A DNA stretch of 64,000 nt, taken from Undaria pinnatifida. Its lineage: Eukaryota; Sar; Phaeophyceae; Laminariales; Alariaceae. Shown piece after piece: positions 20,918 through 63,497 of the stretch. Numbering within the stretch: the stretch's first letter is position 1; every line of letters starts with the position of its first letter. The stretch is from the NCBI GenBank assembly GCA_012845835.1, contig JABAKD010000021.1:1961685-2025684 (forward strand). The letters run 5' to 3'. The position numbers and the translations under genes are program-made. The notes beneath the pieces are model-generated. The model was given only the letters and a program-made list of their open reading frames with translations. It was not told where the DNA came from and ran no database searches.

Positions 20918-21208
20918 ATCTAATCACGCATGGTCGTTTGGTTGTACTGCAGGCGTAACAAAAAGGGCCAACCATCCTCCATAGTTGTCCATGGCTCTCA
21001 AGACACAACGCGTGGTACGTGGTACCCCGCGGGAAATTCCGGTGTCCGACCCGGTTATTACGTCGATTGTCCTGTTGGCCGGACCTTCCGCTACGAAGTG
21101 AAAAACAGGATGAAGTACCGCTTACAATATTTCACAATATTTGTTGAAATTTCAATGTGATCAAGAGTCCATCGTTCATAACTATGTATGGGCGTACAGG
21201 GCAACTCG
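20918..21208. other. unassigned sequence
   Basis: Positions 21165-21208 (AGTCCATCGTTCAT, then GGGCGTACAGGGCA) resemble 25530-25572, beside the LINE endonuclease region. This may be a short shared LINE-flank fragment. Nothing else was seen. Confidence 0.3.
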
Positions 21209-21703
<495 letters not shown>

Positions 21704-33810: not shown

Positions 33811-34075
33811 GAGAAAGGGAAGGAAATGGGTGCATGGGGCCAAGAAAAAGAAAAGGTGAATAAATTTTGGGGGGTCTACTGGCGAGGCTGCCACCAGAAC
33901 GGGATGTCACATGTCACGTGGTCTTTCGACGGTCTACAGCAGTAGTACTACGAACGACTTCCGATACACTCACCGGAGCACGGACTACCGGCCAATTACG
34001 CGATCGACAGCTGGCCGTGGTTGTCACGTGTCTCTGTGTTGGGGGCCCCTGCCCTGCCTCTTGTTGGCTCTTGAG
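33811..34075. other. unassigned sequence
   Basis: About 265 bases with no recognised feature before the tandem array. Confidence 0.4.
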
Positions 34076-35503
34076 AGTGATGCGTGTACGACTATACTTG
34101 CCAGCGAACGGCACTCGCACTGCACTTTGAGCTATCTGCTGTAGTTCTCGTTGCTACTTGTTGCCGCCTTATGTGCTAGACGTTTCGCCCTTCGGCTACT
34201 GCTGCTACACCTGCTGTTGTGTGTTTGCCAATGTCGTCAGTTGGCGTTCATGCTCGTCGTACATACTGATGTTCTCACCGAATATGTGCGGGTTTCCTCG
34301 TACCTCAACCGTACGACGACGAGCTCAAAACCGAAGGGAGGTGACATGAAATGGCATTGACAATGGCCACATAGAAGCGAGCACAGCGGGATAGTTCGCT
34401 GCGAATCAACCGCACTCGTTCAACCGCACTCGTTCATGCCTACAGCAGAGGCTGTCTGGAGTGTCAGCGGCCGTGCTAAAGCCAGGGCCAAAGGCCGAAG
34501 AGACGGCTCTACCTGCTTGGTTTTGTCTCGAGATTCTGTTATATATATTGGACAGAGTGATGCGTGTACGACTAAACTTGCCAACGGCACTCGCACTGCA
34601 CTTTGAGCTATCTGCTGTAGTTCTGGTTGCTACTAGCTGCTGCATTATGTGCTAGAAGTTTCGCCCTTCGGCTACTGCTGGTACACCTGCTGTTTTGTGC
34701 TTGCCAATGTCGTCAATTGGCGTTAATGCTCGTCGTACATACTGCTGTTCTCACTGAGTACGTACGGGTTTCCTCGTACCTCAACCGTACGACGACGAGC
34801 TCAAAACCGAAGGGAGGTGACATGAAATGGCATTGACAATGGCCACATAGAAGCGAGCACAGCGGGATAGTTCGCTGCGAATCAACCGCACTCGTTCAAC
34901 CGCACTCGTTCATGCCTACAGCAGAGGCTGTCTGGAGTGTCAGCGGCCGTGCTAAAGCCAGGGCCAAAGGCCGAAGAGACGGCTCTACCTGCTTCGTTTT
35001 ATCTCGAGATTCTGTTATACATATTGGACAGAGTGATGCGTGTACGACTAAACTTGCCAACGGCACTCGCACTGCACTTTGAGCTATCTGCTGTAGTTCT
35101 CGTTGCTACTAGTTGCTGCATTATGTGCTAGAAGTTTCGCCCTTCGGCTACTGCTGCTACACCTGCTGTTTTGTGCTTGCCAATGTCGTCAATTGGCGTT
35201 AATGCTCGTCGTACATACTGCTGTTCTCACTGAGTACGTACGGGTTTCCTCGTACCTCAACCGTACGACGACGAGCTCAAAACAGAAGGATAGTGATATG
35301 AAATGGCATTGACAATGGCCACATAGAAGCGAGCACAGCGGGATAGTTCGCTGCGAATCAACCGCACTCGTTCAACCGCACTCGTTCATGCGTACAGCAG
35401 AGGCTGTCTGGAGTGTCAGCGGCCGTGCTAAAGCCAGGGCCAAAGGCCGAAGAGACGGCTCTACCTGCTTCGTTTTGTCTCGAAATTCTGTTACGTGAAA
35501 GTA
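34076..35503 (+). repeat. tandem array, three 476-480-base units
   Basis: Units begin AGTGATGCGTGTACGACTA near 34076, 34556 and 35032. Units 2 and 3 are nearly identical. Unit 1 differs more and has a four-base insertion (CCAGCGAACGG against CCAACGG). 476 is not a multiple of three, and the 63- to 69-codon frames that recur are by-products. The array ends inside a unit after TTTTGTCTCGAaATTCTGTTA, where unique sequence begins. Confidence 0.9.
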
Positions 35504-51350: not shown

Positions 51351-51788
51351 GATAGACCTCCCCGTGATTGCTCCCACCACATCTGATTTCCCCCCACTAT
51401 GTGGCTTGGCCAAATGCCCAACATCCCGCGCCATGCTCTCACCTGCCGATCCGGACTACCCTCCTCGACTCACGCTCTCCGTTGTTTGCGTGTTTGCGTG
51501 TTTGATTGTTGCCTGTGACTGCACCCATCCCCCCTCTCCGCGGGACTCCTAATATTCGACCGGAACTGGGCCAACATGTTGATTATGGACTGTACGCCTC
51601 CCATCACGTCCTTCCTGGACAAGATTCCTTGATTCGCCAACCCTCCCACCCCCGCTGTCGTTGATCTTCTGTTGGCGTAAACGTATACGCACATATATTC
51701 GTTTTCCCGTTCCCCCCTCGGTCTCCCCCCCCCGTGAGAGTACACCCCTTCCCCCCCACCCCTCCTGGATGCGTTGGACGCGGAAATG
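51351..51788. other. C-rich sequence, no gene
   Basis: The pyrimidine bias continues without the hairpin unit. Nothing supported. Confidence 0.4.
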
Positions 51789-52060
51789 AGGAAGGTTTAC
51801 GTAAGTGACATGGATGAGTTCGAAGACGAGATATAAGGGAGAAAACGATCGCTATTCTAGGAGATTGATGGTGGCCGCAGACGGGGAAACAAGACGGGGA
51901 TAGGCTAACAATATTTTTTTTTGTAAGATGTGGAAAAAGCGTAATGAGCACCCAAATGTTACAGGTATCTCTATCAGAAGTAGGAACGGTGCCCCGTCTC
52001 GAAAGGGGTTGTTGGTCAATGGTCAAATGACTAAGGCAAATAACTGATCAGTACCCGCCC
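51789..52060 (+). pseudogene. LINE C-terminal fragment, copy 1
   Basis: Translated pieces include KMWKKRNEHPNV, then SIRSRNGAPSRKG and VNGQMTKANN. The DNA aligns with 53382-53550 (GATGGTGGCCGCAGAC, GTAATGAGCrCCCAAATGT) and then with 63177-63290 (GAGTAGGAACGGTG, CTCGAAAG, GGTCAA). It therefore represents the unbroken state of the site into which the large element at 53559-63176 inserted. Confidence 0.75.
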
Positions 52061-52259
52061 CCCCCCCCCTCTTCCGGCTCTCCCTCCTCCATCCTCTCCG
52101 TCTCTACCCCCCCCAGACATCAACAACTCCCGAAGGGTTGAATAAACAGATAAATGAAAGCACTAGGAAAGTGAACGTGATAAAGGTCCAGTAGGTGTAT
52201 GTAACAAAGATACGGTTAACCCGGAAAATTTCAAATGGAAGCGTGGAGAAAATGAGCGA
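52061..52259. other. spacer with C run
   Basis: A short C run at about 52058-52068 and unassigned sequence lie between two LINE fragments. Confidence 0.4.
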
Positions 52260-53549
52260 CCGTTCGTAGAGCAGTATACGTATGTTACGCCGAAGATGTT
52301 TCAAAGGACTGCTCGTGAGGTGCACACAAAGCGAAAGGAACAGGGAATGGCAAATTAGAGGTAGTCAAAATGGATGCGATCCTGACAGACCCGCACCTTG
52401 ACACTGGGATTAAAAATTGTTTTCTGATGAATGCGATTGCACCTAAGTTGTTTGCAGAAGAAGTATTAATATGGAACGCGACGTTCGTAAAACAACTGCA
52501 ACAAGTGCAGATGACAGCAGCTGGAAATATACTAGGATGCTCAAGTACGACGACTAATAGAGTATAGGAGCAGAAGAAAGAACGTACCCATTCATAGCCA
52601 ATAAAGACATGCGAAAGTTGAAACATGACAAAATAAATGATGAACATGTCAGAAAACAAGTTGCCAGACGTAGCTGAGAGGGATGTATGGGAGAAAACAA
52701 GAGGTCGAGTTGGAATAAGATGGGAGAACGTTGGCAAGAAAACATGTAAATATAAAGTGGGAGAACAAGAAGAGGTAATGTCTGTAAAGATGTTTGGCGG
52801 GTACAACACAGAAACAGAAGCACTCATAAAAGAGAAAGGGAATGGCTAGCGCTATGATATAAGATGAAACAATTAATAAATGGTATCTGCACGGCCCCAT
52901 GGATTACCCGAAAATGGTGAAACTGCGATTTCGAGTGGGGGACCCAGACCTACCAGAAACAAGAACGAGATATACCGGTAGTCGGGAGGAGGAAGACCTG
53001 GCTCCCAACATGTGCCCGTGTGGCCCAACAATAGAACATAGGACTGACTCGTGCTACGATAATGGTGCACCACCTTTTTCGGTGGTTCCTCTATTTAGGA
53101 ACAAAAGACCTCTCCCAAAAACTATTTTGATTAAACTAGAACTGCTACCAGATGAAAAACCCCATGCCCAAGCACACAACGAACATCACGCAAAAACAAA
53201 ACCTATTTCCGACAATTTTGGGTTAAGAAGCCTATTTCCGATAATTTGGGCTTTAAAAATCCCCGTCATCAAAAAACCATTTCAGAAGAGGAGAGGTACA
53301 AATTATATTATAGCCTTGATCGACTCACATAGTAGGAAAATGTGGAATGTGCTAGGAAGAACGGAATGCGTTAAGAGGATATGAGGAAATGTGACGTATG
53401 TGACATGGAAGGGTATTGTAGACAAAAGATTAGCTAGAAACGATCGCAATCATAAAAGATGGATGGTGGCCGCAGACAACGATACAGAACGGGAATGGGA
53501 TATGCAAACCGGTTCTATGAAACATTTTGGACAAGGGTAATGAGCGCCC
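52260..53549 (+). pseudogene. LINE reverse-transcriptase C-terminal region, decayed, copy 2
   Basis: On the plus strand IKNCFLMNAIAPKLF, FVKQLQQVQMTAAGNILGCS and STTTNRV (52390-52560) fit the region after the LINE catalytic domain. Pieces that follow in other frames include REREWLALR and the GPMDYPKMVKLRFRVGDPDL block near 52890-52965. MCPCGPTIEHRTD near 53010 and DGWWPQTT near 53460 complete the order. Frameshifts and stops are frequent, and REP-4 (53044-53310) interrupts it. The last codons continue after the large insertion, at 63177-63290. Confidence 0.75.
53044..53310 (+). repeat. REP-4 dispersed repeat, copy 2, inside the LINE
   Basis: The LINE frame stops after GAACATAGGACTGACTC and resumes at GACTCACATAGTAGG near 53322. 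The repeated GACTC may be the target duplication. The inserted part matches 5303-5520 through TTTTGGGTTAAG and continues about 85 bases further. Confidence 0.55.
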
Positions 53550-53574
53550 AAATGTCTGCACACCCTGTACAACT

Positions 53575-53880
53575 ACACTAGTTGGTAGTTGCCTGCCAGA
53601 CACTACTTGTTCGAATTTCTGCGCAACTAGTTGTCTGCAGGCAACTACTGTCTTGAGATCCTGCACAACTAGTTATCTGCAGGCAACTACTTGTTTGAGA
53701 TCCGGCGCAACTATTTTCCGGCAAACAACTACTGTCTGAAGATCCCCCGAAACTAGCTGTCTGCAGGCAACAACTTGTTTGAATTCCTGCCCAACTAGGT
53801 TTCTGCAGGCAACTACTTGTTCAAATTCTGCGCAACTAGTTGTCTACGGACAACTGCTTGCTTGAGATCCTGCGATACTA
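53575..53880 (+). repeat. subterminal array 1, 41-base palindromic unit
   Basis: About seven units of 41-42 bases are each centred on AGTTGTCTGCAGGCAACTAC, whose core GTTGtCTGCAGgCAAC is an almost perfect palindrome around a PstI site. Units are joined by TTGTTTGAGATCCTGCGCAA-like spacers. Confidence 0.85.
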
Positions 53881-54600
53881 TTAGTTGTAGTCGTTTTGGC
53901 AACTACTTTCCAAATTGGTTCTTCGTCATAGAGAGGGAGCGAGGGATCGGAGGGAGCCTGTAGCCATAAGCCATATGTCATGAGATGGGAGAGATTGATA
54001 ACGGGACAGTACCGACTCAAATGCGTCCACATTTATTTGGGCGTAAGTCAAAGAAAACAATATTGAAAATTATTTTGCCAACCACCAGTGTTGTTGCCTC
54101 TCCACTATTGCCTCTATCCTGTCCTTTGTCGCGGATTGAAGCCACCCAGAACACAAAACGAAACACACCGCAACAAACTCCAACACCAGCCTCGCCGCCA
54201 CCGTCCGCGTCACTACGCACATTACATAAGACTGCTGTGTACAATTTGAATATCCACCCAAAACAACCACCCAACAGGTCTCTATGCACTAGTTCTTGGA
54301 GACGGTGTGGCCGCCATCCGGCGCGCCATGCCACCCCCCTTCCATAATCACTGCTGCTGCTGCTGCCGAACAAGACCCGCTACCTCCTTCCTCAGGTGGC
54401 GGACCATCACCATTTGCTAGGTCAACAGATGACATGTAGACAGTTGGCGAGAGCCCACGTATGTTGCTCGTGCGCGCGTGATGTGCGGCGCTGTTCTCGT
54501 TTGCACCACTGGATCTTGGTGATTTGTTTTAACTGTTCTAGGCTGAAGACGTCAAATTCAACGGTCCTCGGAACTCGGGACCTTAACCATCTCCGCTCGT
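53881..54600. other. unique interior of the fold-back element
   Basis: About 720 bases separate the two arrays. Frames at 53985-54347 (+) and 54017-54373 (-) overlap and have no recognisable transposase motif. I found no DDE-type or zinc-finger signature. Confidence 0.5.
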
Positions 54601-54917
54601 CTGTCAACTCAACTAGTTGTCTGCAGACAACTACTGTCTAAGGATCCTGCGCAACTAGTTGTCTGCAGGCAACTACTAGTTTGAAATATTGCGCAACTTG
54701 TTATCTGCAGGCAACTACTGTCTATAAATCCTGCGCAACTAGTTATCTGCCCGCACCTACTTGTTTGAGGTCCGGCGCAACTAGTCTCTTGCAAACAACT
54801 ACTGTCTGAAGGTCCTCCGCATCTAGCGGTTTGCAGCCAACTACTCGTTGAATTCCTTCGCAACTTGTTGTCTGCAGGCAACTACTTGTCGAAATCCTGC
54901 GCGACTAGTTGTCTACG
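54601..54917 (+). repeat. subterminal array 2, 41-base palindromic unit (left part)
   Basis: Units recur every 41 bases from 54617 (54658, 54699, 54740 and on) with the AGTTGTCTGCAGgCAACTAC core. The minus frame 54609-54881 is simply the array translated (SSCLQTTSCAG repeats). The array is cut at 54917 by the copia element and resumes at 63016. Confidence 0.85.
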
Positions 54918-57154
54918 TCTTGATTTCTAGATGAAGCTCTCGAGGCTCATAACCTGTTGATTCTTAGATGAAGCTCTCGAGGCTATAGCCTATTGATAGC
55001 TGCTTGATGCGTTGACGCAAGACAAGGCTGATAACCTGTTGATTACAACCTATTGAACTTAGGTGGCATGTGGCGTGTATCAGCTCTCTTGGCTGGTGTA
55101 CGCTCGTAGGCTCGCTTTCGGATGACCCGATGAAGACACAGCCTATATTATAAAAAATGAAAATACACTCCAGCTGTGAGATCGAAGATTCCGTCGAAAC
55201 TCATCTTTGCAAGCTGTGTGTGATACTCCGATCGACCAGCATTACGAGTTGTGTGTCCTTATTAAGGATATAGGTCGGCGACTCCCCTTACAACGACAGT
55301 GTAGCTATCAGGGTCAACAGGGTGATTTTAGTCAGTCTGTGCGCGGAAACTATAAAACCCGTTTCTGGGGGGGACAAAATCTGACAGCTGTGAAGGGAAA
55401 TGTATCCTTTTATGAAGTGAATCTTGTAAGTCGAATAACCGGTGCGGGGGGGGGGCGGAGTTTTTAGGGACCTGGAGGCCTGGTTTTGATCAAATGCGAG
55501 CGGGTTTGGAGGGGGGGGGGGGGGGGGGGGGGCGGGAATTTGTGCGTGTAAGCTATATATCTTTTCAAGGGGATAAATCTGACGGTTTTGGCGCCAGCTT
55601 ATTACTGGGGGCGGCGGGAGGGGGGGGTTGGGGCGGGGGGGGGGGCGTGTGGGGCAGCTCAATATGTGCGTGGAAACTATACATTATTTTAAGGGGATAA
55701 ATGTGACGGTTTTGGAAATAATGCATCAGTTTATCATGTATATCCTGGGGTAAGTCGTACAATCAGTGAGTAAAGAGAGGGTGGAGTGTTCGAGGGGGTG
55801 GGGTTGGGATGGGTTGGGGGGGGAGGTGGGGGGTGGGGGCGGGGGGGGGGGGGGAGGAAGGGCTTTAGGTGAGGGGTTTGTTATACGTGTGGTGCTAGGT
55901 TTAGGCGATGGTGCGGGTGATGGGGAAGATGGGGGCGTTCGAGGCGGGGGGGACACAGCGGCATGGATGGCTCTCGAAAGATAATGAGGTGATATCCTGT
56001 GCGTAAAGTGTTTATTAATCTGGCGGATTTCGATATTTGGTGGGGCGTTTGAGTAAGGGAGAGCAAGAGGGGGAGGGGGGGAGGTTTTTACGAGGTTTAG
56101 GTCACAAATAATATTCAAATACACTTCGGCTGTGAGATCAAAGATATGTACCAGCTTGTTGTACGCGTGGTGCTAGGTCTAGGCGATCGTGTGGGTGGTT
56201 GGAAAAGAGGGGGCGTTGGAGGGGGGGGTGGGGGTGGGGGGAAAATAATTGAAAACTACGTCATGGATGGTCAGAAAGATAATGACGTGATATCAACTGC
56301 GTATAGGTGTTTATTACTCAGGCCGATTTTGAATGTGAGTGAGACGTTTGGACAAACTAGGGTGAATCGGGGGACGGGGGGGGGGGGGGGGGGGGGGAGG
56401 TTGGGGTTTTTTATGAACAAGAGGGGTCAGGGGAGGGGAGAAGAGGAGGGGGGGGGGGGGGGGGCATTTCAATATATATATATATATATATTTATGATTT
56501 GAGGCAAACGAAGGCCACGGTTAGGTGAGCTTGTAGGAGCAGAGAGCTCGAGCTGAGAAGATGTTGTTCGGCGACCCCAGACCGATATGTTGATTGATGA
56601 TTAGTTTGCTCAGCAGATGAGAGCTGATGGTGAGCAAAAAGGAGTGATCGAGGTGGGCCTGGCCATTGCCTGGTCGAGACGGCACAATGCGTATGCTACG
56701 GACAGATCTACCCTAAGGGTAGATGTCTGATCTACCTACAGCAACGTTTCCTGAGGCTTGCTCGTGGTCCACCGTACCTTTGGCAATGTTCCCTGAGGTT
56801 TGCTTCTGGGAGCTTAGCTACGTCAACGTCCCAACAGTAGTCAACCTGAAATCATATTCCACGAATGTTGCTACCAGGTACTTATTCCGCCGCATTTTTT
56901 TTTATTACACCGCACTACTCGTACGTACAGCATGTACCAGCGGTTGGATATGACTAACCAGCAAGCTGCTGTGCATCATGTATCCAAGATATTGCTGCTG
57001 AGACTTGTGCTTGCTACGAGCTGCATCGATAAACGACAACAATCTGACTTATTTTAAATATCTGTTGTACGAATAACTCGCAATGTATACCAGATGACTT
57101 TTAAGTGTTATCAAGTAACGACATGATAGTTACTGACAAGCAGCATCTCTAATA
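54918..57154 (-). repeat. 3' LTR of the copia element, with REP-1 insert
   Basis: The LTR parts are 54918-55145 and about 56491-57154. They match 61991-62221 and 62346-63015. Between them lies a REP-1 long form (55146-56490). Confidence 0.8.
55157..56490 (+). repeat. REP-1 element, longest copy, extremely G-rich
   Basis: It starts AATACACTCCAGCTGTGAGA and passes all short-form landmarks to GACAAAATCTGACAGCTGTG. It then continues for about 1 kb with G tracts, including 22 consecutive G at 55511-55532. Internal repeats are of two kinds. One is AACTATA...AAGGGGATAAATsTGACGG at 55560-55600 and 55675-55712. The other is CGTGTGGTGCTAGGTtTAGGCGAT at about 55890 and CGCGTGGTGCTAGGTCTAGG at about 56165. 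A second REP-1 start occurs at 56118. Gly-rich frames here are composition artefacts. Confidence 0.7.
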
Positions 57155-57165
57155 TCTCCTCCCGT
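57155..57165 (-). other. polypurine tract before the 3' LTR
   Basis: On the minus strand GGGAGGAGA lies immediately before the LTR start TATTAGAG. This is the expected place for the plus-strand priming tract. It supports minus-strand orientation and the LTR boundary. Confidence 0.65.
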
Positions 57166-59244
57166 TAAGTTAACACTTTCTCACTCTGCGTTACATGATA
57201 AAAAACTCCATAACAGAAATGCATGCAGCAACAATGACAAATGTTGGGAAAAAAATTTCGCGTAGAGCAAATTTATCTTGCTAATACCCGAAGAGTGAAC
57301 ACAAAACAAGCGGACACGAAAAATTCTGCTCTGACACTATACGTGCTTCCGCATATTTATGCAAGTTAACTTACTAGCTCACAATTCTAGAATCATCAGA
57401 TGTGAACTATATTCCAATCGGTTAATCAACCAAGGAATTAAAGATGTTTGAAGTAGTCTAAAACAGTGAATGTATTCATCATTCCGCAACAATCATAGGA
57501 GTGAACAGCCTACCAATGTTCCTGCCGCCCTCAAACAAAGGAACAAAGGGGCACTGCCAGCGATTTACAGCCGGATAAGACCACATATTGTAGTGAGACA
57601 TCATCTCTCGTTTATCTCAACCTTTTGTGTGTACTTGTCCAGGTGGCGGGTTTTTATGTCCGTACATATCCTGAAGTACCGGAGATGGCGTAGTCAAATG
57701 TAAGATTCAACTGTCCAGTCGATATTGCCTATTCGACTTGTACCCTTACTTGGTACTAACTGCGATATTTCGCAATTTGCAAACCATGCACAACACCGGT
57801 CGTTGTCTCTGCTCGCCCCGTACAAAGAGAACATGCGACACTCTACGTAAAGCTTTGGTAAAGAGATAATGCATTTCACACTTCCAGTGGCTTGACCTTG
57901 TTGGTGTAGACGTTGTCGGTGTAGACGTTGTTGATGTAGACGTCGGTAAATGTGCTTGATCTGTTGTTTATCGCTTGGATTTAGAGGCTTAACTTCATCT
58001 TGAAGTCGGAGAGGTAATTAGACTTATTTATCTCAAAACCTGTTGCCGTCATCGGCGCCGCCTCGACTGTTAATTATGCACCCAGTCTCTGCGTCATGGC
58101 CTCGATGTATATGGGCTCGTCGTTCAGGATGAAGAGGAAGCTTGAGGTTGGCTTGCGGGTGTACACGAATGCCGGAGATGTCGCCAGTGGCTCTTGATCG
58201 TCCTGTGTTGATTCCGCAGATCCTGTCTCGGGGTTTGCCCGTGGCTGTCCTTTGTTGTTTTGAGCGTGTGAACCTCCTCCTGACCGTCTATTTCGTTGTT
58301 GAGCTGGGCTCCAAGGCTTGGCTCAAAAATAGCTGATGTGATTTCGGGTGTAGCGGACATTGTCGATCCGTCGACCCTTGGCTCAGCTGATGGTCCGGTA
58401 GTCCCAGATGGCGATGATCCAGCGACTCCAATGGTCCCATGTGATGCTGTTGGTCCAGCTGATGCTCCAGTGATCCCACATGAATTTGATCCAGTGATCC
58501 CAGAAGCAGTGGCTCCGATGTGAAATGGTGATCAAGATTACGTTGCTCCGAAGATCCCATGCGAAGATGCTTTGGAGACCCCAGCTCCGGTAATTCCGGT
58601 TCCGGTGATTCCAAGCGATGCTGATCCGTGAAGTAGATGGCATCTGAGTGTGTCGTTGGGGATTTTAATCACCCGGTTTTCCTCCTCCGAGATCCGAAAC
58701 GGGTCTCTCTCGGTGCAGGTGAAGTTTAAACACGTGGTCGGTGGGGTTGTCCCCGATGCTCCTGTTGCGTGCGTGTTGTCAAAGGTATCCTCGACTCTTG
58801 GATTGGGTCTTGTACTGGCGGTCTCGTGATGCGGTACATCCGGTGCGGCCCCAGTTGTAGTAGAATGTGCGTCTCCGGGCGTCAGAGCAGGTGTGATTCC
58901 TGTCCAGGACACTCCTGAACTTCTTGCGGTAGTGCTCCAGCCCTTGATAACGATTCTCCAATATCTGGTGATGATGACTCTTCTTCTGATGAGGATGCTC
59001 CAGCTCCCGTCGATTACGCTCCGGCTAGTGTCGATGACGTTTCCTCTCCCAGAAGGTTGTTCTCGTAGTAGTGTAGCATGACCTGGACTAGAGCACAAAA
59101 GCGCTCCGTCTCAGTGACAATGGCTTTCTCGGGCTTGTACGGGACTTGCGCATGTTGGCGCTCAGTCTTCGTGACAGTGGCCTCTTTGGGCGTGTTGTTT
59201 CCGCCTGACGGTGTGCACTCCTTTTGGGTCGCGTGATTCTGTCC
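57166..59244 (-). pseudogene. decayed 3' internal region of the copia element
   Basis: Minus frames at 58124-58360, 58288-58614 and 58538-59098 are separate pieces in several frames. The first piece after integrase is rich in Ser, Thr and Glu. Around 58290-58560 a GATCCnnTGATCCCA-type repeat encodes a degenerate low-complexity linker. A stretch near 57700-57880 has weak coding character. I saw no reverse-transcriptase motif (no YVDD-type block) and no RNase H. A TGTAGACGTTG 15-base tandem repeat lies at about 57905-57945. Confidence 0.5.
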
Positions 59245-60972
59245 TTACCTCGCGGATACCCTCTTTCGTTGCGGCGTTACCGTCGTGGTGTGCTCCATGG
59301 CTATGCTGGAGTTGGTGCAGAATTCTTGGATCTCGTCGAAGGTGCAAGCGCATTGATCATCGTCGTTGCTTGCCTGTGCTGCAGGAACTCCAGCAGGCAT
59401 TGATGGCGTATCAGTCGTGTCGCCCAGGGTGCGAAGGAATACGTCGTAAGAGCATATGCTCTTGTCCTCTGGGTGTTGGGTGAGCGGAAGCGAAGTGCTG
59501 CTGTCGAACTGCAAGTGGGGGTTTCTTGTTTCGAGGATAGTGCTTACCCCTGGTTGCATTGCTTTGATGGAGGAGAAGACGTTGCGTCCCAGTCCAGGTA
59601 CGAACATGGCCGAGATGCGAACAGGAGCACGCTTGCCAGCCTGGTCAATGATCTATCCCCATATGGTGCCTGTTGCTGTTGCGAATACGTTCTTCCCGTT
59701 GGTCATGATGGTGTTCGGATCTTTTAGATTCTTGTAACCCTTCAGGCTTTTCCGCAGTATTGGAATCAGCTCCTCGTCTATCAGGTGGTCCGACGCGCCG
59801 CTGTCCACAAGCATGGTGAACCTGTCGCTGTTGGGGTGAAAACCCCTGTTGCCGTTACCATTGGAGTGAAAACCCTTGGGGTGAAAACCTCTGTTGCCGC
59901 TACCAGCTAGCAGCCCTGTAAACGCGAATCCCTCTTCGAAACCATCGTCGAAGTTGGGGGATGGTTTTTCGTCGTCGTTGGGGCGCGTGCTCGCGCCCTG
60001 TACAGCAGAGGCAGTGAGAGCGCGTCCACTCTGCGGTGGGCGTGGCGCTCCTTGCTTGTAGCATTCCGTGTCGTTGTGCGAGGCAGTTTTGTGTACAGAA
60101 CACCACTTGTGCTCAGCTCCAACGTTGGATGCTGCCTTGCCGTTTGAAGATTCCTTGTTGTTCTGCTTGTTGTAGGCGCCAGTAGACTTGCTGTCGTTGT
60201 CGTCATTCCTTTTCCAGCAGTTGCGGGCGTAGTGCCCTTGCTTTCCGCAATGACTGCAAGTCGATGCCTCAGTCATGGCAATGCCACGACCAGCGATCCT
60301 GGTGTCGCTGTTGCGGGAAAGATCATCTAAATAAAGATGGCGCATCGTGCTTGGCATCTGGTCAATGTCGAAAGTCGGGTCTCGGAACATCATCATCTTG
60401 ATGTCCTTGTACTCCGCCGTGAATCCTTGTACACAGATGTCCTTACATCTGCGGTCGGAAATCACCTCGCCCATCTTCTCGAGCTCAGAGCGCGCGAGCA
60501 TCTTTTCCACAAAGTAGGAGTCCGGATCTTCTCCTTGCTCCATGTTGGTGTTGACGAGCTTGACCATTTTCGCCCGGATCACTTCGTCAGTGACCTTGTT
60601 GTACTTCGAGACAAGTTTTTGTAGGGCCTTTTGTCCGTCACCGGTCGTCCCAGTCTCATCCTCGTGCTTGAGTACGAGTAGAGATGCTGGTTTTTCCGTT
60701 AGTAGAAAATGCATGGCGTACAGATCTTGATTTGCCCTTTCATAAGCTGTGATTTCTTGTGCGAGTGCCGGTGAAGGTCCCGTACCGGCCGTCGCTTCGG
60801 TCGGTCGAGGACGCCCTTTAATGAGGTTAGCGACATCGCGTCTGGATACTTCAATTACAACCGCCAATCGTTAATGCCAATCTCGAATATCAGCTGGGCT
60901 GCGCCCATCGAACGTCCTCAGTCCTTCAATAGCGTTGGCGAATGAAGTGCTGCTGCTGTTGGATTCCCCCAT
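59245..60972 (-). pseudogene. copia gag-protease frame with two in-frame stops
   Basis: From ATG at 60972 one frame runs to 59245, broken by TAA at 60871-60873 and TAG at 59653-59655. The N-terminal part matches the copia gag style (YERANQDLYAMHFLL, RSELEKMGEVISDRRCKDIC). A CCHC knuckle follows, CSHCGKQGHYARNC (C-x2-C-x4-H-x4-C), near 60260. The protease motif FTMLVDSGASDHLID lies near 59790-59830, and the typical MFVPGLGRNVFS block at 59607. After HPEDKSICSYDVFL the frame jumps to FDEIQEFCTNSSI and TPQRK, the end of an integrase core. The integrase zinc finger and most of its catalytic core are therefore deleted. Stops may reflect decay after insertion. Confidence 0.8.
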
Positions 60973-61990
60973 GGTGATGATGAGTAGGTGCCAGAGAGCA
61001 GTTCACTCAGATGTCTCGTATGGTATCAGTACTTGTAAAGCAGTGTAGTAGTACCAGTAATCCCGCCGCACGTATGATACGAGCTGCTGTATGAAACAGC
61101 CGTTTCAAGTGCAGTAGTGGTGTTTGTGTAGAAGTCGAAGGCGTTATTATGGAGATTTCCAAAAAAAACTCGGAAACCTCTAAAAAAGATACAGCAGTAC
61201 GAAGGTCCTCCTGATGCAGCTGCTGGTTGCTGGCTTGCACTACAAGTAGTCGCCTTGATGCTACTCTACTGCCGGGAGTGCTCTTGACAAATCTTGTCGC
61301 TTGGAGTTTGGCGAGTTCTTACTGAGAAGTCACGCTTTTGGCCCGCACGCTCAATGAGGTGCGTTGGGCAGTTTTGTTCTGTCTATCACGATGATCACAC
61401 GTGAAGTCTATGGCCCGCCCTCAACGTGAGGTGCGTTGGGCTCGAATTTTGGTCGGTCTATCACGATGATCACACGTGAAGTCCTTGAACTAGAGGTCAG
61501 AGCTCTATTAACAGACAAGTAGGTTGTACCGTCGAGAGTTGCGTCTGTACCGCTGTTGCTCAGAACGACCCGCTTATTTGGAGTCGAGGCACCGTACAGC
61601 AGTTAGTTGTATAATCGAGTATATCGAGGTTTCGTTTTGGAGTCCTTGACGATGTAAAAATGGGTCCCGTGCGCGTGGATGGTTGATTTGGTACAACCTG
61701 TGATGTGGTGGCGTTCTGTACCTCTAAGTACCTCGATTACAGCTCTGGCATCAATTGCTTTCATTGAGTACGTAAGGCCCTCTAGATATGCTCACTCACT
61801 CACCGCGCGTTTCCAATGAAGTACTCTCGTAGTAGTCCTCCGTCTGATACTTCTCGTCGTACTCGTAGAAGTAGATGTAGAAGCTCCCGTAAGCAGCAGT
61901 AGATTTCTTGATCAGTCGTCCTCAAGTGATGATGATGATCGTGAATCCGTGCCTTAGCTCTCCCCGTTTACGCGTGCGAAGGTCGAAACC
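60973..61990 (-). other. copia 5' leader between LTR and gag
   Basis: About 1 kb of non-coding leader. It contains a 75-base tandem duplication around 61381-61484 (GTCTATCACGATGATCACAC and GTGAAGTC twice). No tRNA primer site beginning TGG was found beside the LTR end at 61990. Confidence 0.55.
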
Positions 61991-63015
61991 TGTTGATTAG
62001 TATATGAAGTTCTCGAGGCTCATAACCTGTTGATTCTTAGATGAAGCTCTCGAGGCTATAACCTATTGATAGCTGCTTGATGCGTTGACGCGAGACAAGG
62101 CTGATAACCTGTTGATGATAACCTATTGAACTTAGGTGGCATGTGGCGTGTATCAGCTCTCTTGGCTGGTGTACGCCTGTAGGCTCGTTTTCGGATGACC
62201 CGATGAAGACATAGCCTATATATATATCCTTAATGAGGACACACAACTCGTTATGCGCGCGATCGGAGTATCACACACAGCTTGCAAAGATGAGTTTTGA
62301 CGAAATCTTCGATCTCACAGCTGGAGTGTATTTTAATTTTTAAAATATTTATATATGATTTCAGGCAAACGAAGGCCACGGTTAGGTGAGCCTGTAGGAG
62401 CAGAGAGCTCGAGCTGAGAAGATGTTGTTCGGCGACCCCAGACCGATATGTTGATTAATGATTAGTTTGCTCAGCAGATGAGAGCTGATGGTGAGCAAAA
62501 AGGAGTGATCGAGGTGGGCCTGGCCATTACCTGATCGAGACGGCACAATGCGTATGCTACGGACAGATCTACCCTACGTGTAGATGTCTGATCTACCAAC
62601 AGCAACGTTTCCTGAGGCTTGCTCGTGGTCCACCGTACCTATGACAATGTTCCCTGAGGTTTGCTTCTGGAAGCTCAGCTACGTCAGCGTCCCAACAGTA
62701 GTCAACCTGAAATCATATTCCACGAATGTTGCTACCAGGTACTTATTCCGCCGCATTTTTTTTTATTACACCGCACTACTCGTACGTACTACATGTACTA
62801 GCTTTTGGATATGACTAACCAGCAAGCTGCTGTGCATCATGTATCCAAGATATTGCTGCTGAGACTTGTGCTTGCTACGAGCTGCATCGATAAACGACAA
62901 CACTCAGACTTATTTTAACTGTCTGTTGTACGAACAACTCGCAATGTATACCAGATGACTTTTGAGTGTTATCAAGTAACGACATGATAGTTACTGACAA
63001 GTAGCATCTCTAATA
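61991..63015 (-). repeat. 5' LTR of the copia element, with REP-1 insert
   Basis: The LTR parts are 61991-62221 and 62346-63015. The outer part near 62584-62814 carries the same short frame as 56723-56953 in the other LTR, as expected for repeats. REP-1 lies between the two parts. Confidence 0.8.
62222..62345 (-). repeat. REP-1 element, truncated, in the 5' LTR
   Basis: Minus-strand REP-1 runs from ATACACTCCAGCTGTGAGA (about 62338) to TCCTCATTAAGGATATA (62222). It sits at the same LTR position as the plus-strand REP-1 of the other LTR, in the opposite orientation. Confidence 0.8.
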
Positions 63016-63130
63016 CTACGGACAACTACTGGCTTGAAATCCTGCGCAACTAGTTGTCTACGGACAACTACTGGCCTGAAATCTTGCGCAACCGGTTGTC
63101 TACGGACAAACTACTATCCTGGATCACCAA
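63016..63130 (+). repeat. subterminal array 2, right part
   Basis: The array resumes directly after the copia element with CTACGGACAACTACTGG, then two more AGTTGTCTACGGACAAC cores, before the right inverted repeat of the fold-back element. Confidence 0.85.
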
Positions 63131-63176
63131 GCGCAACTACTAGTTGCAGGTGTTTGTTGTAGTTGTACAGGGTGTA

Positions 63177-63290
63177 AAATGTTGGACATATCCCGATTAT
63201 GAGTAGGAACGGTGTTCTGCCTCGAAAGAGATGCGCGGTGGTCAACGGTCAATTACTAACTAAGGCATGCAACAAATAATTACCCCCCAC
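63177..63290 (+). pseudogene. LINE copy 2, final codons after the insertion
   Basis: Translation pieces MSRNGVLPRKRCAVVNGQL and TKACNK match the end of LINE fragment 1 (51975-52050). They complete the frame interrupted at 53549. Unassigned C-rich sequence follows, as it does after fragment 1. Confidence 0.7.
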
Positions 63291-63497
63291 TCCTGCGTCC
63301 ATACCTTCTCCTCGTTGCTTTCCGCTTCAATCATATTGCGTATCCGGCTCCTCTTAACCTGCCTAACTTGCACCGAGCCGCCCCACCAATGTCGCAGCGG
63401 CCGTACGTTGTCCTAATGGAAGTTGTATCGTGTGTTCAGAGTAATGGGAATAGCAGCAGTAGAAATGGTGGTGGTGGTGGTGATGGTAGAGATAGTT

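Follow-up and report, generated by a model that had tools for sequence, protein, structure and literature searches.

An array-ended transposon family of Undaria pinnatifida that probably belongs to the hAT superfamily, with terminal inverted repeats and array motif changing together

What kind of transposon carries short terminal inverted repeats (TIRs), each followed by a tandem array of near-palindromic units, and what might such arrays do? This question is raised by positions 53559-63176 of a 64,000-nucleotide stretch of the genome of the brown alga Undaria pinnatifida (assembly GCA_012845835.1, contig JABAKD010000021.1, positions 1,961,685 to 2,025,684 of the forward strand; hereafter the window), in which an earlier note had seen a fold-back element resembling Mutator-like elements (MULEs), inserted in a long interspersed nuclear element (LINE). 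A search of the whole assembly (511,146,479 bp in 68 contigs) places the element in a non-autonomous multicopy family that makes mostly 8-bp target-site duplications (TSDs), as in hAT, and that very probably belongs to the hAT superfamily. Within this family the TIRs and the motif of the arrays change together, which suggests that the arrays are what the transposase grips.

The element proper is about 1.5 kb in length (53559-54917 and 63021-63176) and consists of TIR, array, core, array and TIR. Its terminal 18-mer, ACACCCTGTACAACTACA at 53560-53577, has a perfect inverted copy at 63158-63175 (18 of 18 positions); the ends as first drawn match at 17 positions, a figure that a shift of one base raises to 18. 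Since most copies of the family carry one extra TIR base at each end (a C outside the left, a G outside the right), the boundaries 53559-63176 are correct. Comparison of the ends thus gives a left TIR (CACACCCTGTACAACTACA, class C as defined below) at 53559-53577 on the plus strand and a right TIR at 63158-63176 on the minus strand, the outermost base of the latter being unlike that of the left end. The core 16-mer of the TIR has no further copy at up to two mismatches within the window. Inside the left TIR lies an array of about seven 42-bp units (53586-53882, plus strand) bearing the motif CAACTA in both orientations, followed by a 0.73-kb core (53883-54609, no strand assigned; delimited by reading frames and by copies at other loci) and by some ten further units, running in the same direction as the left array, which a nested retrotransposon divides into a first part of about seven units (54610-54917, plus strand) and a second of about 2.4 units (63016-63115, plus strand) that resumes the split unit. 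No transposase was found in the frames of the core, the Pfam run having covered ten other frames of the window, none of them in the core. The term ‘fold-back’ is apt for the individual 42-bp unit, which is near-palindromic, yet the arrays at the two ends are direct, not inverted, and the element is therefore not a classical foldback. The array stretches fold better than shuffled sequence (DNA z-scores of -7.3 and -5.7). Rfam and tRNA scans returned nothing, and phage records gave no match to the element; the TIR 16-mer has matches in 20 viral and at least 118 prokaryotic stretches, which, given the sizes of the collections, are probably chance matches.

A search of the genome with the left end gives 90 matches, TIRs occur in pairs at many of these places, and the TIR pattern, allowing up to one mismatch, occurs 262 times, compared with 29 occurrences of a reversed control pattern. 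The core is present in 12 of 25 fetched array loci (one of them partial), and the eight core-bearing copies with both TIRs measure 1.36-1.71 kb. Core-bearing elements contain 10 to 23 alignable 42-bp units, and, as judged from longer stretches, both arrays share one orientation with respect to the core at each of the 11 loci that have a core and two arrays.

The length of the TSD was assessed in 27 TIR pairs, comprising the window copy, 14 of the 25 fetched array loci, 10 pairs fetched by their ends, a 12.9-kb element (L195/L196) and the element L220. Eight of these pairs are perfect at 8 bp, nine have at most one mismatch at that length, and four are perfect at 7 bp; a 9-bp duplication is found in none of the 27, even with one mismatch, when both ends are read in the same register. 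Flanks mispaired as a control match at 8 bp in 0.6% of cases. The eight perfect TSDs (GAAAGTTT, AAAAGTTT twice, GTAACTTG, CAATCTTC, GAAGTTTT, AAATATTC and AAAGTTTT) all fit the target consensus NAANNTTN, except for one T at position 2. This count omits L150, whose left TIR has four mismatches, and ten loci where a plausible second TIR, with no more than four mismatches, was lacking (L149, L151, L152, L158, L160, L161, L164, L167, L170 and L171), while at loci with several candidate ends (L162 and L163) one end was taken. A register-free test of 16 pairs, in which L150 was kept, gives a mean shared string of 5.9, against 3.5 for mispaired flanks and a maximum of 4.6 in 2000 trials. Duplications of a different length in other copies had been named in the earlier note as evidence against a MULE, and it is such duplications, of 8 bp, that the family displays.

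The window copy is itself surrounded by LINE sequence on the left (53366-53558, plus strand) and on the right (63177-63330, plus strand), and a LINE fragment at 51769-52100 (plus strand) preserves the unoccupied site. Aligned to the joined flanks this fragment scores 233, compared with 159 and 93 for the flanks alone and at most 42 and 35 for shuffled sequences, and the end of the left match and the start of the right match overlap at the junction AAATGT (51954-51959). A second unoccupied LINE copy, in L166, reads CCCAAATGTTGGAG across the site. Both the empty site within the same window and the more general description, a TIR transposon without a visible transposase, inserted in a LINE, had been recognised in the earlier note and hold good. 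Its nine-base duplication holds for this copy only in the sense that AAATGTCTG (53550-53558, plus strand) and AAATGTTGG (63177-63185) are identical at seven of nine positions; in the family, where 8 bp prevails, the left duplication is read as the 8-bp AAATGTTG plus one inserted base and the right one as AAATGTTG (63177-63184, plus strand). The left flank of L163 and window positions 53550-53558 have the same odd left duplication (NAATGTCTG, where the right side has NAATGTTG), and both look as though they had gained a base at one and the same point.

The assignment to a superfamily is supported by domain matches. The hAT dimerisation domain (PF05699) is found in L166 (1.1e-14), in L167 (1.5e-11), where it adjoins the TIR and lies between arrays at a locus whose second TIR was not found, and in the 12.9-kb element L195/L196 (4.9e-5; frame L195:870-1238). 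In L217, a frame of 267 residues contains PF05699 (1.3e-10) and matches the Hermes transposase in the PDB (4e-5); beyond this frame the 42-bp CAACTA unit is repeated 9.2 times in an array, and the only end within the stretch then carries a class C TIR without mismatches. In L220 both ends have class C TIRs; the element also has two arrays, the TSD AAAGTTTT and a run of 61 residues with 89% identity to the final part of the L217 hAT frame, largely outside the Pfam domain. L219 combines a CAAATA array and a hAT frame of 511 residues (PF05699) with a class A TIR at its single visible end, and L218 a CAACTA array with a hAT frame of 448 residues, although no complete TIR was recognised there. A hAT fragment also occurs in five of the ten end-fetched pairs. 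Proximity was calculated from 100 of the 262 TIR places and 62 of 144 hAT protein matches: 12 of the 62 fall within 3 kb of a listed TIR, where 0.07 would be expected. The hAT protein matches left out cover about the first 40-90 residues, many at places some 6 kb apart, and probably represent the long terminal repeat (LTR) of a retrotransposon nested in L217. The core of the window copy has weak similarity to the transposase-bearing relatives (best 1e-7, whereas 20 shuffled sequences gave no match), but of six further window segments three match as well, probably through shared repeats. The 8-bp duplications, together with C-terminal hAT transposase sequences inside or beside elements that combine TIRs and arrays, thus point to hAT and not to MULEs.

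A MULE or Phantom-type foldback like Tm1 of root-knot nematodes, with composite, internally repeated ends and 9-bp duplications, has some points in its favour: a very similar architecture is described for Tm1 (PMC3169594), the genome has at least 111 matches to the MULE domain (PF10551), and the window copy taken by itself fits 9 bp. Not one of those 111 matches, however, comes within 20 kb of any of the 100 TIR places listed out of 262, and this, with the hAT domains in and around elements with these ends, the missing 9-bp duplications among same-register pairs and the direct arrays, leaves the MULE assignment refuted in practice and a reading of very low probability. The MULE-domain matches are themselves unevenly distributed, 41 of the 111 lying on contig C30, which holds 5.4% of the assembly. 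At three MULE loci (L186, L189 and L190) a TIR-like word, CACACCCTGCACTTCTGC, was considered as a possible end; in longer stretches (L192-L194) it turned out to be internal sequence common to all three. The KDZ transposase (PF18758) had no match in the genome, in a search that matched no control genome either. P elements make 7-8 bp duplications, a range that would suit the present family. A P-superfamily element like Galileo, with long, internally repeated TIRs holding several transposase-binding sites, also deserves mention, as the tandem repeats of Galileo do hold binding sites (PMC3688188). The hAT dimerisation domains within the elements argue against this alternative, which we regard as most improbable.

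Several observations weigh against a hAT family with 8-bp duplications. The window copy has no transposase of its own, and neither the TIR CACACCCTGTACAAMTAC (CACACC...) nor the target NAANNTTN fits the forms typical of hAT, which are common in that superfamily but do not define it. A BED finger was not found by Pfam in ten frames of L218 and L219, where upstream exons may lie outside the pieces scanned, and the upstream frames of L219 that were scanned gave no Pfam or PDB match to an RNase H-like core, so that the C-terminal hAT domain alone is identified. As regards the duplications, a clear one (perfect at 7 or 8 bp, or with one mismatch at 8) is present in just 13 of the 27 pairs and none is clear in the other 14; L148 shares nine bases if its left terminal C is counted as flank, which makes the register uneven. 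The window duplication, read without a gap, fits 9 bp (7 of 9) better than 8 (4 of 8), so that the 8-bp reading requires the inserted base, and L163 has a duplication of the same odd form (6 of 9).

A further finding concerns the relation between the TIRs and the arrays. TIRs that read ...ACAACTAC (class C) accompany CAACTA arrays, and TIRs that read ...ACAAATAC (class A) accompany CAAATA arrays. In the consensus 42-bp unit CAACTA occurs three times, two copies being forward and one reversed, and the TIR itself contains this motif. At unit column 22 the base found in most units matches the TIR in 24 of 25 elements, namely all 17 of class C and seven of the eight of class A (one-sided Fisher 2e-5, ignoring relatedness), with some rows resting on three or four units. 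For this count 27 elements were classed by the letters of their TIRs, and L151 and L159, which have a T at an end, were set aside; L195/L196 (which agrees in an earlier tally), L160 and L170 (no TIR) and L218 (no complete TIR) are left out of it. The earlier tally, with TIR classes labelled by hand, gave 22 of 23, with L151 (T at the diagnostic base) called C and L217 judged on one unit. Overall the two class consensuses differ at columns 4, 7, 22, 27 and 28 of 42, and columns 4, 7 and 22 correspond to one and the same motif position in each of the three copies, of which one is reversed; that the three named columns should be among the five has a probability of 0.0009, judged after seeing the data.

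Comparison of the remaining 39 columns indicates that motif class is no simple reflection of the other unit columns. Window-type units retain 37 of them relative to class A, and 27 of 39 relative to the class C units of L217 and L220. In fact, the units of L217 and L220 keep the three diagnostic bases although 12 of the other 39 columns differ; their third motif reads CAACTC. In L218 the gap in the unit was placed by hand, which puts the third motif out of register by one base. In class C, conservation is higher in the motif columns than elsewhere in the unit (0.960 versus 0.868, permutation p 0.0013), while in class A the difference is not significant (0.942 versus 0.899, p 0.08).

How this co-variation arose can be read in two ways. 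We consider it rather likely that a hAT element with transposase-bound arrays accounts for the observations as a whole. CAACTA or CAAATA would then be the subterminal repeat of the family, amplified by the arrays and bound by the transposase, and selection for matching sites would presumably drive the concerted change of TIR and motif. The 42-bp arrays would present the transposase with many docking sites beside the cleavage site, much as subterminal repeats do for the BED fingers of Hermes. A different account takes the hAT element as given but holds the arrays to be passive minisatellites, which grow by slippage or unequal exchange, are homogenised by conversion between units and TIR, and contain a motif without function. 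The varying unit number (10 to 23 alignable) and the shared ancestry of the subfamilies are in keeping with it. Against this stands the change, at one shared position, of three motif copies that lie in both orientations, which a single mutated unit cannot alone achieve, and so do the 37 of 39 other columns shared by classes that differ at all three diagnostic consensus columns, the retention of the diagnostic bases in L217 and L220 despite their other divergence, and the conservation of the motif columns in class C, with the class A comparison falling short of significance. On this evidence passive arrays seem to us unlikely, though a good deal less so than a MULE or P element.

The reading in terms of transposase-bound arrays has its own exceptions, to which the passive account can equally appeal. 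L171 (C38:9186500-9192000), which is a chimera or else a genuine departure from the rule, has a class A TIR beside an array in which CAACTA prevails at column 22; L162 falls between the two classes at column 7; column 4 is A in just 69% of class A units; and shared ancestry or gene conversion could yield co-variation without binding. The ambiguity of L151 and L159 and the mixed column 4 reduce the strength both of that overall explanation and of the more far-reaching proposal that follows from it, which we offer tentatively and rate at somewhat below an even chance: that a hAT lineage has turned a few subterminal sites into 42-bp arrays acting as a multi-site recognition code, and that one or more switches of this code between CAACTA and CAAATA, keeping pace with an altered DNA-binding specificity of the transposase, have changed both TIRs together with the motif copies in the roughly ten to twenty units of each element.

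If the hAT reading is followed for the window itself, a non-autonomous hAT transposon of about 1.5 kb would have entered the LINE with an 8-bp target duplication, moved in trans by a transposase from a family whose gene-bearing relatives persist in the genome, and a Copia-like LTR retrotransposon would later have landed in the right array and split the element. This nested retrotransposon, which is separate from the hAT element, occupies 54918-63015 on the minus strand, that is 8.1 of 9.6 kb or 84% of the interval, and is the cause of the apparent size of 9.6 kb. The arrays amount to about 0.7 kb in total, and the description of the interval as built mainly from palindromic tandem arrays must therefore be abandoned. 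The retrotransposon is delimited by LTRs, by a polypurine tract and by a 5-bp duplication, CTACG, whose copies (54913-54917 and 63016-63020, both plus strand) flank it on both sides within one 42-bp unit of the right array. On the minus strand it has a 5' LTR (61991-63015) with a 126-bp insert (62223-62348), a gag-like frame (59653-60867) with a weak CCHC zinc knuckle below the Pfam cut-off, a polypurine tract (57155-57166) and, adjoining this, a 3' LTR (54918-57154, identified by BLAST against the other LTR) with a G-rich insert of 1.3 kb (55144-56483). The LTRs are 94.4% identical over 234 bp and 96.0% over 671 bp by BLAST, which was used because the inserts distort a MAFFT alignment. A protease-like LVDSGASDH was read by eye, no reverse transcriptase was found in the two frames of the element that were scanned, and by inference from its gag and protease features the element is probably Copia-like. 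The inserts of the two LTRs are of one repeat family and occupy the same TA-rich site in opposite orientation, in spite of their different lengths; several further copies of this repeat in the window adjoin TA-rich sequence, which recalls TA-targeting transposons.

That the whole 9.6 kb is a single composite transposon, with the retrotransposon part as cargo that moves with the ends, is scarcely credible in view of the LTRs, polypurine tract and 5-bp duplication of the inner part and of the small size of the core-bearing copies with both TIRs, even though the outer TIRs have survived intact and long members of the family can transpose, as is shown by the 12.9-kb element. The latter (L195/L196, C21:2737600-2750750) has family TIRs, a perfect 8-bp duplication (AAAAGTTT), three arrays and a hAT fragment, and from it large composites of the family do seem to have moved. 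Elsewhere in the window there are three tandem copies of a 476-bp unit (34074-35493, 96% match) and a GTT microsatellite of 165 copies (21208-21700).

The family illustrates that arrays resembling minisatellites can be dispersed through a genome by a transposon that carries them. Its two motif classes also form a natural experiment: if transposases of the L218 and L219 types read CAACTA and CAAATA, respectively, subterminal repeats become testable as a specificity code that co-evolves with the enzyme. In another brown alga, Ectocarpus, a 2025 survey lists four hAT families and one MuDR family (PMC12477816). Searches of open-access literature, at the level of titles and opening lines of abstracts, brought up neither a hAT family with regular subterminal arrays nor a case of TIR and array changing together.

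The closest comparison is with Hermes, as far as the available sections of its description extend (PMC10368747). Most hAT elements, according to the same work, carry subterminal repeats, and in Hermes the BED fingers bind short repeats of this kind, cooperatively on a quasi-palindrome, with one repeat lying inside one TIR. The present family shares with Hermes the 8-bp duplication, the hAT transposase and a short motif repeated both beside and inside the TIR. In contrast, the 17 and 14 AAG(T/C) motifs of the two Hermes ends are not described there as a regular array, whereas here CAACTA or CAAATA recurs in 42-bp arrays of mostly 10 to 23 alignable units, and its binding is predicted. In outward form the family resembles elements of other superfamilies. 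Tm1 of Meloidogyne is likewise non-autonomous, its ends are built of internal repeats whose copy number varies, it has empty sites at paralogous positions, and one copy holds a nested insertion, but it has a Mutator/Phantom-like transposase, 9-bp duplications and 13-15-bp repeats arranged as inverted ends (PMC3169594). Galileo shares the foldback-like ends and tandem repeats, in its case with transposase-binding sites, but belongs to the P superfamily and has a THAP domain and long inverted TIRs (PMC3688188). Tetris of Drosophila virilis is also non-autonomous, has tandemly repeated ends and duplications of 8-10 bp, and has yielded no transposase; it differs in that its 220-bp repeats form inverted ends, and was assigned to Mutator by its authors (PMC4079207). 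The array-ended, foldback-like elements compared here have thus been placed in Mutator or P, and a similar appearance within hAT means that structure alone misleads, as happened in the earlier note. Such ends are already known from Mutator (Tm1), from the Mutator-assigned Tetris and from P (Galileo); what appears to be new here, relative to these accounts, is that TIR and array change together.

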